A DNA stretch of 64,000 bases from Henckelia pumila (Eukaryota; Streptophyta; Magnoliopsida; Lamiales; Gesneriaceae), in contig NC_133120.1 in NCBI RefSeq assembly GCF_033568475.1, positions 91,530,151 through 91,594,150 on the forward strand. Direction: 5' to 3'. Both the position numbers and the translations under genes were made by a program. The notes beneath the pieces are model-generated. The model searched no databases. It saw only the letters and a program-made list of their open reading frames with translations, and had not been told where the DNA came from. Position 1 is the first letter of the stretch; the number at the start of each line of letters is the position of its first letter. Shown piece by piece: positions 27,506 through 35,800 of this stretch.

Positions 27506-27960
27506 TAAGAGGAAGATCAGAGTTGTGGACTTTGTAAGGATTGTGATGAATCTATTGAACACTTGTTCTTCCAGTGTTTTTGTGTCATGCAGTGTTTGGG
27601 ATCGCATCTGAGATTGGATTCAGATGAAGAAGTGTATGAGCTCACCTACTACGATTTTGAAAGCATTTCGAGGAGTCTATTGAGGTGCGGGTGTCATGAC
27701 CCGCTTGAGAGTGATGGGTTTGGCGGCTTGCATATACTAAGTATGAAGTGCACGTAATAGAGCATGCATTAAAGATAAAACTCCTGATGTTGAATACATA
27801 GTTCAGCGCATTAAGACTTTGGTTTTACGTTGTATGTATTCGAACTTTGATGTTTTGCCTTCGTGACTTTGTTAGTTTGTATTTCGATTTATTGTAATCA
27901 ACTGAAAATGTCCGATGTAGTTGTACCTTTATCTATTTACCTTTAATGAATTTTTCATTC
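27505..27960 (+). mobile_element. 5'-truncated LINE 3' fragment (zf-RVT region)
   Basis: The translation CGLCKDCDESIEHLFFQC fits the zinc-knuckle-like motif (CxxC...HLFxxC) found at the C-terminus of plant L1-type reverse transcriptases, and further on a frame reads KIRTPDVEYIVQRIKT, resembling the short segment that usually ends such proteins. Frame is broken at least once between them. Only the last few hundred bases are present, as is usual for LINEs truncated at the 5' end. A tail of TTAATGAATTTTTC...AAAAG follows; no clear target duplication was seen. Confidence 0.5.
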
Positions 27961-28076
27961 ATTAAAAGAATAATAATACACTCATATTATAGTGTTCAAA
28001 TCATATTCATTATAAAGCACAGTTCTATAACATCACCTAACGTCCGACACCAATAAGCCATTTATTACATTTGATC

Positions 28077-28235
28077 TAGAGGTGACAATTGGGGAATGTA
28101 GATAGCATCCACATACGTGCTTCAATATGCTTAAAATCTCCTAGCTCAAACTTATAGCCGAAAAAACTCCTCCATATCCGTCTGTTTCGGGTTTTTTCCA
28201 CAGTCTCAAACCCGTTAAGAAAATTGTTATCCCTA
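28077..28235. mobile_element. hAT-type MITE whose right target duplication is split by a Helitron
   Basis: Ends TAGAGGTGACAATTGGG and (reverse complement of right end) TAGGGATAACAATTTTC form imperfect inverted repeats. The left 8-bp target is ATTTGATC (28069-28076). On the right only its first base A (28236) follows the element; the remaining TTTGATC appears at 32280-32286, directly after the Helitron. Removing the Helitron restores a perfect 8-bp duplication, showing that the MITE was there first. Confidence 0.9.
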
Positions 28236-28484
28236 ATCTATATATATATATAAAAGTCTCACATATCATTGTGAATTTACATATTCATCAATTTATATTA
28301 ATAATTTGCATACATTCTTTCTTAGTTTTCGAGGTTATATACGTAATTGCCTCATGTCCCTTAGCTGCCTTACTAATGTCGGCCGCCTATTTCCTATGTC
28401 TGCATTGTTGGAATTCCAATAACTCTAATGCCTTAATAAAGCTTCGGTCAATTCATTTCCAAGATTTTTTTTGAATTTTTTTGT

Positions 28485-30690
28485 GTCATTTTATAGTTTT
28501 ATTCAAGGGCATTTAATTTGTGATTATTTACATATTTTAGGTAAAATTAATTGTTAATATTTCATTAATGTCCTAAAATTAAATTTTTATTTTTATCCAT
28601 AATTTATTTCATTTAATGGTTAATTTTGTGTCATTTCCAACATTTTTTTGAGGTTTTTCTATGTCATTTTGTAGTTTTATTCGATGAGTATTTAATTTAT
28701 GACTATTTATATATTTTAAGTAAAATAAATTTATAATATTTAATTCATGTCCTAAAATTAATTTTTATTTATATCCTCAATTTATTTAATTTAATGGTTT
28801 TTTTTTTTTGAAATTTTCAAGGTTTTTTTATGTTTTTTTGTCATTTTGTAGCTTTATTCCGTGAGTATTTAATTTGTGTCTATTTATTTATTTTAGGTAA
28901 AAATAAATTCCTAATTATTTATCTATGTCCTAAAATTAAAGTTTTTTTAATTGAAAACTATATTAAAATTTGTGCTCTACATCAAATAACTTTATTAATT
29001 ATTTTTTCTCTACATCAAAGAAATTTATTAATTTTGTGAAATTACTTTCAACATTTATTTTCAACGTTATTTTTAGTCTCCATTCTTATAAATTTTTTAA
29101 CATAATATTTTATTATTAAACTTTTAAAAAACAAATTAAATCGAGTCGTTAATTTTAATCATCTGATTCAAGACAAGTAGAATCATATCATAATCATAAA
29201 TCGATATTTTATTCCATTTATATAGGAAAGCTATCTCCTCTTTTATTCAACTAATTCGTTTATTTTTTGGAATTTAGTAATTTAACTAAAATTTTTTGTA
29301 TTTCAGTTTTTAGGAAGGATATTTTATCTAAATTAAAATTTTTTATTAATTTTGTGAAATTACTTTCAACATTTATCTTCAATGCTATGTTTTTAGTCTT
29401 CATTCTTCTAAATTTGTTAACATAATATTTTGATTATTAAACTTTTAAAAAAACAATAAATTAAAACGAATCATTAATTTTAATTATCTGATTCAAGACA
29501 AGTAGAATAATATCATAATCATAAATCGATATTGTATTCAACTTATATAGCAAAGGTATTCTCCTCTTTTATTCAATCAATTCGTTTATTTTTTTGGAAT
29601 TATGTAATTTAACTAATATTTCTTGAATTCCAGTTTTTATGAAAGATAACTTTAAAACTAATAGTGATGCCTAACTAATATTTTCAAACATTTTAGGGAC
29701 CAAAAATATTTTAGTGATGAACTAAAAGTGTATTAATCAACAACACTTATATTTTTTTTTTATCAAAGGTAAACAAATATATGATTATAAGTAGGTTTCG
29801 TGTTGATATTTGAACTATAGTTTTGTCATTTTTAAGGTTTTTTGAGGTTTTTTTATTCATTGTATAGTTTTGTTCAATGAATATTTAATTTGTGTCCATA
29901 TATTTATTATAGGTAAAATTAATTGCTAATATTTAATTCATGTTCTAAACGAAAGTTTTATTAATTGAAAGCTATCTTTTTTCTTTTTCTATAAATCTAA
30001 AAAATTTATTAATTTTTTAACTTACTTTCAAGTTTTATCTTCATCGCTATGTTTTTAGTCTTTTAAAATTTTTAACATAATTTAGTATTAAACTTTTAAA
30101 AAACAAAAAATTCAATCGAGTTATTAAATTTTACCGTCTTATTCAAAATAAATAAAATATATCATAAATCGAAATTTTATTTCATTTATATAAGAAATGT
30201 ATTCCCCTCTTTTATTCCATAAATTCGTTTTTTTTTAAATTTGGTAATCTAACAAAAAAATTTGGTATTCCGATCCATTTTTTAAGAAAAAGGACTATAA
30301 AACTAATGGTGATGATTAACAATGTAATCTTTTCAAAAAATTTAGGGATTAAAAATATTATAGTGTTGAACTAAAAGTGTAATCACATTGATATTTTTTT
30401 TGTCCAAGTTAAAAAAAAATTAATTATAACTAACTTTCATGTTGATGTTTGAACTACATTATAATATAATCTTTATCTATATAAAAGTGGTCATTTAGCT
30501 ATGAATTTACAGTTTTGTCCTTATTTTATTTCATTTACTGATTATTTTTTTGTCATTTTCAAGGTTATTTTTATGTCATTTTGTAGCTTTTTTTCAATGA
30601 GTATTAAAATTTTGCCTATTTATTTATTTTATATGAATTAATTGTTAATATTTAATTCATTTTCTAAATTTAAAGTTTTATTAATTGAAA
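28485..30690. repeat. Helitron module 1, about five diverged copies
   Basis: The word series GTCATTTTGTAG-TTTATTCAATGAGTATTTAATTTGTG-CTATTTA-TTTTAGGTAAA-TTAATTGTTAATATTTAATTCATG-CCTAAA recurs near 28485, 28660, 28835, 29835 and 30565. Similarity between copies is high enough to align by eye, with small insertions and deletions. Confidence 0.75.
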
Positions 30691-31000
30691 GCTATTTAAT
30701 CTAAAAAATATATTAATTTGTGAACTTACTTTCAACATTTATCTGCATCGCTATGTTTTGGTCTTCTAAACTTTTTAACATAATATTTTGGTTATTATAC
30801 TTTCATGAAAAAATATAAACTGAATCATTAACTTAGTCATCTGGTTCGAAACAAGTACAATCACATTATAAATAATCGAGACTACATTTCACATATCTAT
30901 GAAATATATGCTCCTATTTTATTCAATCAATTCATTTCAGTTCGTTTATTTTTTGAATTTAGTAATTTAACTAAAATTTTTGGTATTCCAGATTTTAGGA
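29020..31000. repeat. Helitron module 2, four copies of about 300 bp
   Basis: Copies start near 29025, 29345, 29990 and 30700. Each runs through TTACTTTCAACATTTAT, TTTTAGTCTTCATTCTTC, TTTTTAACATAATATTTTGATTATTAAAC, ATCTGATTCAAGACAAGTAGAAT, ATAAATCGATATTTTATTC and CTCCTCTTTTATTCAA. Modules 1 and 2 alternate, so the Helitron seems to have grown by repeated internal duplication. Confidence 0.75.
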
Positions 31001-31224
31001 ATAATGATTATAAAACTAATGATGATAACTATGTAATCTAACTATGATAGTTTACTGAAAAAAATATATTACAAGATATTAACAAATAAAATTATAAAGA
31101 AAAAGTTTACCTTGATTGTTGAGAATCAAATTAAGTCATATGGACAAAATGTTTTATTAGACACAAAAAAAAAAAATGTTTTAGATACACTTTATCTATA
31201 GAATATCAAATTTTCACTAACATG

Positions 31225-31540
31225 CTCAATTTTAGGTTTTTGTCACTAAGTTTTTAAAGTTTGGTTTTTGTACGTTAAATTTTATTTTCAGCTATTTAGA
31301 ATTAATTGTTGTGGTGACACTGAAAAATTCTTATTTTGCATCGAAAAATGCTGACATTTGCATGGTAATGATGATGCGACATCAAAATTGCTGACTTGTC
31401 AGATGTCATGTCAGCAATTGGACTAAAAATAGTCAAAATTAAAATTTACTATGTCAAAACTAAAATCTGACAAATCAATTGAATAAAAATCAAAATTTGA
31501 TGAGTTAATGGACTAAAAAAAATATTGTTTTAACTTACAA
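31225..31540. mobile_element. Possible long-inverted-repeat element inside the Helitron
   Basis: The left side (CAATTTTAGGTTTTTGTCACT) and the reverse complement of the right side (CAATATTTTTTTTAGTCCAT) are weakly alike, and the centre has the CTGACATGACATC / ATGTCATGTCAGC style palindrome. The plan resembles the elements at 11701-12610 and 41244-41537, but similarity is low and ends are not fixed. Confidence 0.35.
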
Positions 31541-32286
31541 ATCAATAGAAGTAAAATTATTATTTAACAAATATTATTTTTTCTGAAGTGCAATAATTAT
31601 TCATACCGAGTAAAACAACCGAAACATGATGTTTGAGATAAAACATAGTTTAAGATATTGGATTAGTATTGTTACCAATGACTATAATTTTTGAAAAAAA
31701 GCAATAAGCATTCGGCCATACAATATGTATCAATGTGAAGGTCATGACTTCGATTGACATTGTTTGCAAGCATAATTATCGGGAAAAAGATTGTTCGGTA
31801 CAATAATTATATCTTTGCTATGTAGAACAATCCAAATGTAGTGTTTGAACTGTTGCACAGATTAAAATATTTGAATTACATAATTATATATCATCATCTA
31901 TAGCTTTTAATAAAATGCAAAACGTCCAGTCCTATGGTTTATAACAAAAATCAATGTATTTTTTTATGTTTCTCGACAAATATATAAAATATGTTATTGG
32001 TTTAAAGTCATTAGTTAAAAAAATAAATTAAATCCAATTATAAAACATAAAAGTATCGATTAGATGCAACAAATTGATCGCAAAAGAGAAAAGTTAAAGA
32101 CGTAATGTTCTCACTTCAATTACTAATTAGATATCAAATCATTATAACCGAAGTTTGAAATTGATAGTAAAATATATAACACTTAATTAAAAAATATAAA
32201 CAATTTAAGATATTATACGATAAATTCAGTCTCAACTAATAAAATTATTGTCGCGTGCAAAGCACGTGCAATTTTCTAGTTTGATC

Positions 32287-32837: not shown

Positions 32838-35800
32838 CTATGTAGCACGAGCCATGTTTGATGATGAAGTAGTCTGTAAATTTTTCGTTTCTTTCGAATC
32901 TAAACCCTCTGCAATTGAGGAGGTTTCTTCTCCTTTAGAGCCAAAATTTCTTGGATTCATACGAAGCACCTCCTCTTTTGTAAGGATTAATATCTTCCGA
33001 GCCATACCACAAAATTCTCTGTTACAACAAGGAACCACTACTGATGAGCATGAAGAAAAATATTAAATGCACTAAATATGAAAGCAGCGTAAGAAGATAA
33101 TCTGAAACTTATGGATGAAAGCGTTCATAAAAGAGGGATATATAAACTTACTCCCAAGGATCATCTCCAACAAGCATCATATCATCCTCGTCATCTGTAT
33201 ATACAACAAGCCAATCCTTGCCAAGAGCCCTGAGTTCACCATTAAATACGAAGATATTATCCAATTCAGCAATCAATTCATCGTAATTGTTGAACTTCGC
33301 AAGTTCTATAGACCTTCCAAGGGCCATGCCTTGCTTATGAACCTGAAATCGAAACATTTAAAATATATTTATATTTATTTATTTAAATATAAAAAAATTG
33401 AATGACTATTGTCTGTAGAGGGAAAATGTCAATATCCCAGAAAGAACCTTGGTGCAACTTCTTGTTGAAACAGAACTAACTCTGCCTTCCCTCTCTCTAG
33501 CTACAGGATGGAAGGTTTGAAATTGTTTCTCTGATTCGCAGACAGCAGCAGAAAAGTTTGGTTTTGAGCCCTTAGACTTATCACATCTTTGATCAGATTC
33601 AGTAGTAGAGGAATAATAAGAGTTTATGCCTTGCTCTGTATGGCCTGAAGGCTCCATCCCTGTATTCAGAAATGCTGGCTTCGATGGTAAAGAGTTGCTA
33701 ATAAGTGGAAAACCAAAGAGCTTGCAATTCCCTTCCTTAGATTTCAGAGACTCGGCCGTTTGTTTGTATATGGGCTTTGGCATTAGGTTTCGTGATTGAT
33801 CAGGCAAGATTTCGATATAAGGTGAGGTTGGTGGAGGCATCAACCAATTTGTTTCCTGATTATCACTCATGAGACAAGGTGTCGTGGATAATTCTCTTAA
33901 AGTGTCGTACCTGACTTCCGAATGTGGCTGATAAGATGTATGGCAACTCTGAACAAGAGTTTTTGAACCAGAATCCATCACATCAAGTGGCACGTCAGAA
34001 GGAACCATAGACCATGAGTTCCCAACTAAACCAAACTTTACCTCTAGCTCTCGTGTTTGTCGCTTCAAATTTGCTTCATCAGAAGACATACAGATATCGC
34101 GGGATGAATCAATCTGTGATCCCAACCCTGACAAGAGATCTGTGAATGATGTCTCCGTCCTTCCCGAAGATAACCAGTTATCCGATGCATATCTTCTGGC
34201 AGCAGACACATCGCCATTTTTCTCATCATCTAATGGTGAAGCCCATAGCAGTCGCTTCTCAGACGTGTTTGAATCATTTCTCTCCAAGAAAGTGCCTCTC
34301 AAGGTCAGGAGTTCTTGACCTTGCAAGACCTTTGGAATCCCACTGGCAGATGCAGGGTCTAGTGCCATCTTGGGCGTACCTGTATTACATTATAGGTGGT
34401 GAGTCAAGATTTGGGCTCTAAATAGATATATAAAACCACGAATATAGAAAAAACTTTGGTTAGATTAAATTGAGAAACACACCTTCCCTAGTAAGAACAG
34501 AAGAGTTTGGGGATGAAGGCAAGGCACTTGGTCGAGGCCTTTTTGATCTGGGGACTGGAAGTGGGTTCATTGCATGAGGAGGTAGAGCAGGTTCTATGTT
34601 CCAAGGTGAAACCCTGTTTGGTCGAGGAATTGCAGAAGTTTCATCCCACCGCACCTTTATGCAAAATTAAAAGAAGAATTCTCAGAACAAAATGATGAGA
34701 AACAATTAACCAAGGGATGTTATGAGCCAAAAAAATTAACAAGACAACGAGGAGAAGGAGCCTCGTTGAACAAAAATAGAAACCTTTAGGGATCTCCATT
34801 TTGAATTTGACCATCGTTTTGTATCAGAGTCTTCAATACCAACTATAGTTCCAGTAAACCTAAAAGAAAACAATTTACATGATAAAACTGCTCTATGAAA
34901 TCAAAACAAAAGTAGCACATCATTCAAAAAAATACTGCCTACCTCTGTTCTGGTGCTTCTTCACCTTCAAATCTCATTTTAAATCTCATTCCTACGGAAT
35001 AATTGTTCTTAACAGAGTTTACATATTGATCATAAGGGACGATAAACTCAGCCGGGCTCGTCCTGTGATCAAAATGTGACGTGTTGAGGGGATGATTAAA
35101 ATCCGGAACAGCAATAATGCTTGCCAATGAGAGATATATCATATATGTGCAAGTGAAAAACCTGGGTTTGTAATACACGGTGAACATGGTTTTTGTTTGA
35201 GTAGCATGCCAAGCTGTTGCCAGAACACCGAGATGCATGTTGTGGCTGGATATGACCGATGACGGAGCATTACCCAGTTGTTTCATAGCACGCCTAACTC
35301 CAACACGCAACTCTCCATTCTCCCCCCTGAAATTGTGAGGCATTTGAATCAGATAGATAGAAATATAACTATAGGTAAAGGCAGAAGAGTAAGACTGGTG
35401 TCTAGCCTCAAAAATATGAAGGCATCACCAGCAACAAGTCTCTTTGAACTAACAAACACGCTCCACCCACTCTGAAGGAGGTGCCTCCTGGGTTGACCTG
35501 GAATTAATGGAGCAAACGAAATCACAAGTCAAACTCTCCGTTCAGAAGAAATCAAGAGTTGGTTCATACATAAAGCAATCTACTAAATAACATAGATTCC
35601 ATATCATATAAGAATGTGATTATTTCTTCTTCTTTCCTTTAATAATTTCCCTCTGATTTTTTTTGCTTTTTGGTCAATCAAAATTGCATTACAGAGTAAC
35701 TGGGTTTGGTTTAAAAGAACTACTTTTCTTGGTAAATTATTTCTTGATATTTAGACTCTTAGCTCTTCCTAAGCAACCTTTTAACCAATTTCTACATCAG

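Follow-up and report, generated by a model that had tools for sequence, protein, structure and literature searches.

Canonical Helitrons and Helraiser have a TC 5' end joined to A and a CTAG 3' end joined to T, carry a 3' hairpin and enter AT sites with no target duplication, and the experiments with Helraiser gave TC-to-A and CTAG-to-T junctions with a targeting of AT that was strong, not absolute (PMC4778049). Helitron ends are by convention written TC...CTAG (PMC8969392). The non-autonomous rice element Mothra (DHH_Mothra) has a TC 5' end, a CTAG 3' end and a hairpin 13 bp from its end, and its description in PMC4683698 gives a consensus of 1,993 bp with no transposase, a very low GC content in bloc A (∼20%; ∼40% in bloc B) and direct-repeat blocs that vary between copies. 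FoHelis are fungal elements in which the 5'-end sequence is repeated within one element and a single 3' end is kept, the duplicated 5' stretch being typically short, <200 bp, in the account of PMC5148889. In genome annotation, nested insertions are handled as a matter of course (PMC6913007), and reading a chronology from nested or interrupted repeats is apparently a published approach (PMC5657132, PMC2672092).

The window, a 64-kb stretch of Henckelia pumila DNA, holds two elements of known kinds, a hAT-type element and a Helitron, separated by a single base. Read from the letters, the locus begins with the left copy of an 8-bp target site duplication (TSD), ATTTGATC (28069-28076, no strand assigned), followed on the plus strand by a 159-bp hAT-type deletion derivative (28077-28235). 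The next base, A (28236), is the first of the right TSD copy and is separated from the other seven, TTTGATC (32280-32286), by a non-autonomous Helitron of 4,043 bp on the plus strand (28237-32279). The Helitron starts with TC (28237-28238) and ends with CTAG (32276-32279), preceded by a plus-strand hairpin (32247-32272) that lies 7 nt from the element end. Taking out 28237-32279 yields an exact 8/8 duplication that fails to extend to 9 bp on either side; with the segment left in place, the sequence right of the hAT element agrees with the left 8-mer at 3/8 positions. Free of the segment, the sequence across the right hAT border would read CCCTA/ATTTGATC, i.e., ...TTATCCCTA-ATTTGATC-AAAAGC. The hAT element most probably came first and the non-autonomous Helitron later entered its right-hand duplication, a reading to which we give a probability of about 96%; the order follows because the Helitron lies inside the hAT element's duplication and splits it. 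The sequence-only reading had proposed this order from the split duplication, with letters and coordinates for 28069-32286 that are correct to the base, and its perfect duplication after removal of the segment was recovered here.

Its statement that all ends are fixed exactly holds once the TC...CTAG convention is applied. Excision of 28238-32280 restores the 8-bp duplication just as well, because T is both the first base of the Helitron and the next base of the target, and the locus alone therefore leaves the Helitron ends uncertain by 1 bp. The choice of 28237-32279 rests on the convention. With TC...CTAG settling this slide, insertion between A and T, as had been suggested, agrees with the A and T junctions of other copies described below.

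The Helitron shows the canonical features (TC/CTRR ends, a 3' hairpin and insertion between A and T with no target duplication). Folded as single-stranded DNA, the hairpin had an energy of -8 kcal/mol (z -2.64), and 5 of 200 shuffles folded at least as well. The GC content is ∼22%, and a block of diverged direct repeats, ∼70–87% alike, occupies 28453-31039 on the plus strand. Pfam gave no match above cut-off in the four scanned of the five stop-to-stop frames of ≥60 aa that overlap the element, the best hit being DUF1186 (E 0.0087), below its own cut-off. Unlike Helraiser and canonical Helitrons, the window copy showed no Rep-helicase domain in the four frames scanned. It has in common with Mothra the TC and CTAG ends, the hairpin near the 3' end, the lack of a recognized transposase, the very low GC content and the direct repeats; it differs in size and hairpin position, the window element and its closest full-length copy being 4.0–4.1 kb long with the hairpin 7 nt from the end, and the likeness is one of anatomy.

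The closest full-length copy (copy 2, C3:32475099-32479200) is continuous over 4,102 bp and has the same outer ends in a different setting, its left flank ending in TTATA and its right flank beginning with TTAAATT, so that A and T again stand at the borders. The two elements are 97.1% identical over 3,929 aligned positions (K2P 0.030; computed from two bases right of the 5' end of copy 2), with 285 gap columns that include one gap of 152 and one of 90. Substitutions in grasses accumulate at 1.3e-8 per site per year, a rate at which the two copies would have diverged ∼1.1 million years ago, only an order of magnitude. The suggested check against other copies of the segment, made here inside one genome, left the reading unrefuted.

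Copy 2 also bears on which unit moved. An internal stretch at 30475-30520 (plus strand), found by pattern match and reading A, then TCTATATAAAAGTGG...GAATTTACA, is like a Helitron 5' end, and it could be proposed that the mobile unit was a shorter Helitron starting at 30475 which landed in older sequence. This is very unlikely, since the 97% copy extends over all 4.1 kb and shares both outer ends while its flanks differ, and the duplication is restored by removing the outer segment. To the eye, the motif at 30475 resembles the 5' end of a further copy (L090), and much of the Helitron upstream of 30475 is made up of diverged repeats of the sequence downstream.

The full-length element starting at 28237 was also examined at its left end, with a 364-bp 5' query. 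Relatives of 97, 94 and 94% identity over nearly the full query were found together with many shorter matches, at least 108 matches in all (best 40 of 259 candidates scored). In 20 of 23 5' ends inspected, i.e., the window and 22 others, three of which (L004, L083, and L092) were judged by eye, the TA-rich tract at the terminus had a TC immediately preceded by A. The exceptions were L081 and L091, which had no TC, and L004, in which TC was preceded by T. The 20 include L087, in which T precedes the outermost TC and A is found only before a TC further in; 5' ends frequently offer more than one candidate TC, the end being a TA/TC tract. These ends are not all independent, as upstream sequence is common to L005 and L008.

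Tandem 5' ends were seen at two places, 483 bp apart at L006/L005 (C4:142680469 and 142680952) and 482 bp apart at L008 (C4:29248406 and 29248888, minus strand), and the 80 bp upstream of the inner 5' end look alike at the two places. As in FoHelis, from which the present element differs in not being fungal and in the typically short duplicated stretch of the latter, 5'-end sequence is repeated within an element that has just one 3' end. It is conceivable, if doubtful, that the family grows by stacking new 5' ends ahead of old ones while a single 3' end is kept, with several usable 5' termini competing to define the mobile unit; the examples for such a reading are 30475 besides 28237 and the pair of 5' ends at C4:142.68 Mb, which are separated by 483 bp.

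A search with the 3' 239 bp gave at least 50 matches (best 40 of 141 candidates scored), and in 29 of 30 fetched 3' ends, the window included, the element was followed by T. A pattern caught 27 of the 30 (26 followed by T, one by A), with CTAG as terminal motif in 22, TTAG in four and ATAG in one; the other three were scored by eye as TTAG then T (L034 and L041) and CTAG then T (L053). The exact 18-mer GCACGTGCAATTTTCTAG occurred 30 times genome-wide, counting the window, against none for a control pattern, and T came directly after it in 29. The lone exception among the 3' ends, L046, is followed by A. The fetched and genome-wide sets overlap, with the end in the window belonging to both, and a flank is common to L036 and L038, so that not all 3' ends are independent.

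Sites related to the insertion sites were sought by joining the flanks of individual copies. For copy 3 (C4:149880204-149890890), five matches crossed the junction, and the two best were fetched. One, L100, is a related unfilled site that reads GATATA/TTATAG (slash at the junction), with 51/60 positions identical around it; the other, L101, is less clean, with an expanded TA tract, a gap and 36/60 identical columns. Joined flanks of the copy at C4:15435949 matched two relatives essentially right of the junction, starting 4–6 bases to its left, which gives weak empty-site support. The only match across the joined flanks of copy 2 was copy 2 itself, and no paralogous empty site was found for the window locus, whose right flank matched itself alone in a search that skipped very common words. 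In two relatives the matching 5' and 3' ends are far apart, 10.7 kb at C4:149880204-149890890 and 50.8 kb at C3:51582921-51633729; nested insertions and unrelated pairs are both possible explanations.

The 159-bp element has imperfect terminal inverted repeats (TIRs), TAGAGGTGACAATT and TAGGGATAACAATT, that agree at 11/14 positions by eye. It had 19 matches in the genome including itself, a count from a search whose first look was limited, and the other 18 were 67–79% identical. The right border, or the next base, was reached by 15 of these 18; all 18 align from query base 21 or later and so miss the left TIR, which occupies query 9-22. No TSD lay near the part shared with the relatives because their left ends are 0.8–1.3 kb upstream, where a wider search found them. 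In 7 of 17 relatives (L026, which has no right end, being left out of the 18), a TSD of at least 7/8, three of them 8/8, was accompanied by a left TIR of at least 9/12, and the remaining ten had no matching TSD by this criterion. Swapped flanks gave none in each of 300 trials, with a TIR string picked after a first view of the relatives' ends.

The seven TSD-bearing relatives are 836–1273 bp long, with short inverted ends close to TAGGGATGNCAAT, and, like other hAT non-autonomous elements and MITEs, they combine these with 8-bp TSDs. They have in common with the window element its right 143–148 bp and right border, which align with their last 153–162 bp. As this alignment leaves only a short left end, the 159-bp element appears to be a short internal-deletion derivative of 0.84–1.27-kb non-autonomous hATs. 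The borders of both elements thus agree with those of further copies elsewhere in the genome, at the left and right ends for the Helitron and at the right border for the hAT element.

The earlier label of hAT MITE stands in its first half, on the TSD, the TIRs and the relatives, the window copy having an 8-bp TSD (after removal of the Helitron) and short TIRs; its second half is loose. Unlike hAT MITEs, of which many near-identical short copies are expected, the 159-bp derivative was found once among the 19 matches, none of the others being of the short form. MITE as the name of a uniform family with a high copy number is therefore not supported.

These other copies also weigh against an accidental 8-mer match, in which the right duplication of a hAT fragment would have been lost and the segment beyond it would be unrelated. 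The region is A+T-rich and ATTTGATC occurs four times on the plus strand of the 64 kb, which makes coincidence easier; yet a random 8-mer equalled the 8-mer at a random AT site of this window in only 30 of 400,000 draws (7.5e-5), the other copies of both elements fix the positions independently, and no search over positions was made beyond the 1-bp slide, so that chance is extremely improbable. That the Helitron was the earlier arrival and the hAT element then inserted beside its 5' end, as the single base between the abutting elements might suggest, can be dismissed with similar assurance, since a later hAT element would have both duplications at its own borders, whereas here the right copy is split and matches at 3/8 with the segment unremoved.

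On the left, the neighbouring sequence (27561-27976) belongs to the 3' portion of a repeat. Among 39 relatives listed for it, 34 have matches ending at query 399-420, i.e., at 27959-27980. One relative, L059, encodes a zf-RVT domain, and the window's own frames of this repeat gave no Pfam match; the repeat (27561-27980) is probably the 3' end of a LINE. On the right, an AUX_IAA domain (33148-33357, E 1.2e-7) and an ARF_AD domain (34939-35424, E 2e-10), both on the minus strand, mark what is, by its predicted domains, an auxin response factor (ARF) gene beside the nested insertions. A putative ARF C-terminal frame, recognized by eye and with no Pfam match, stops at 32838, ∼0.56 kb from the Helitron. 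Further ARF-like frames, likewise seen by eye only, reach ∼37234.

In the favored order, hAT first and Helitron second, a short internally deleted hAT element would have inserted near the 3' side of the auxin response factor gene, moved by a hAT transposase supplied elsewhere, and its cut-and-paste insertion would have made the 8-bp duplication ATTTGATC. The Dimer_Tnp_hAT domain is common in this genome (at least 150 matches, with 150 of 955 candidates scored). The Helitron would later have entered the right duplication by rolling-circle transfer, directly behind its A and ahead of its first T, adding no duplication of its own, and a Rep-helicase from another locus may have mobilized it. Helitron_like_N had at least 156 matches in the genome (150 of 338 candidates scored). 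Among the 141 of these 156 that were listed, none lay within 50 kb of the 30 exact 3' ends as an autonomous partner with the same 3' end, the closest being 50.9 kb away, in a comparison by distance that covered the contigs bearing an exact 3' end.

A limited literature search did not find the window locus in print. Both elements are of known kinds, and what is new is at most the Helitron family and the locus. The arrangement is ordinary transposon layering and leaves views of how either element works unchanged. Its value is that of a clean worked example, in which a split duplication puts two insertions in order and serves as a check on both elements' borders with no outgroup. As Helitrons leave no duplication behind, it is hard to define their ends, and such loci would be useful to benchmark annotation tools.
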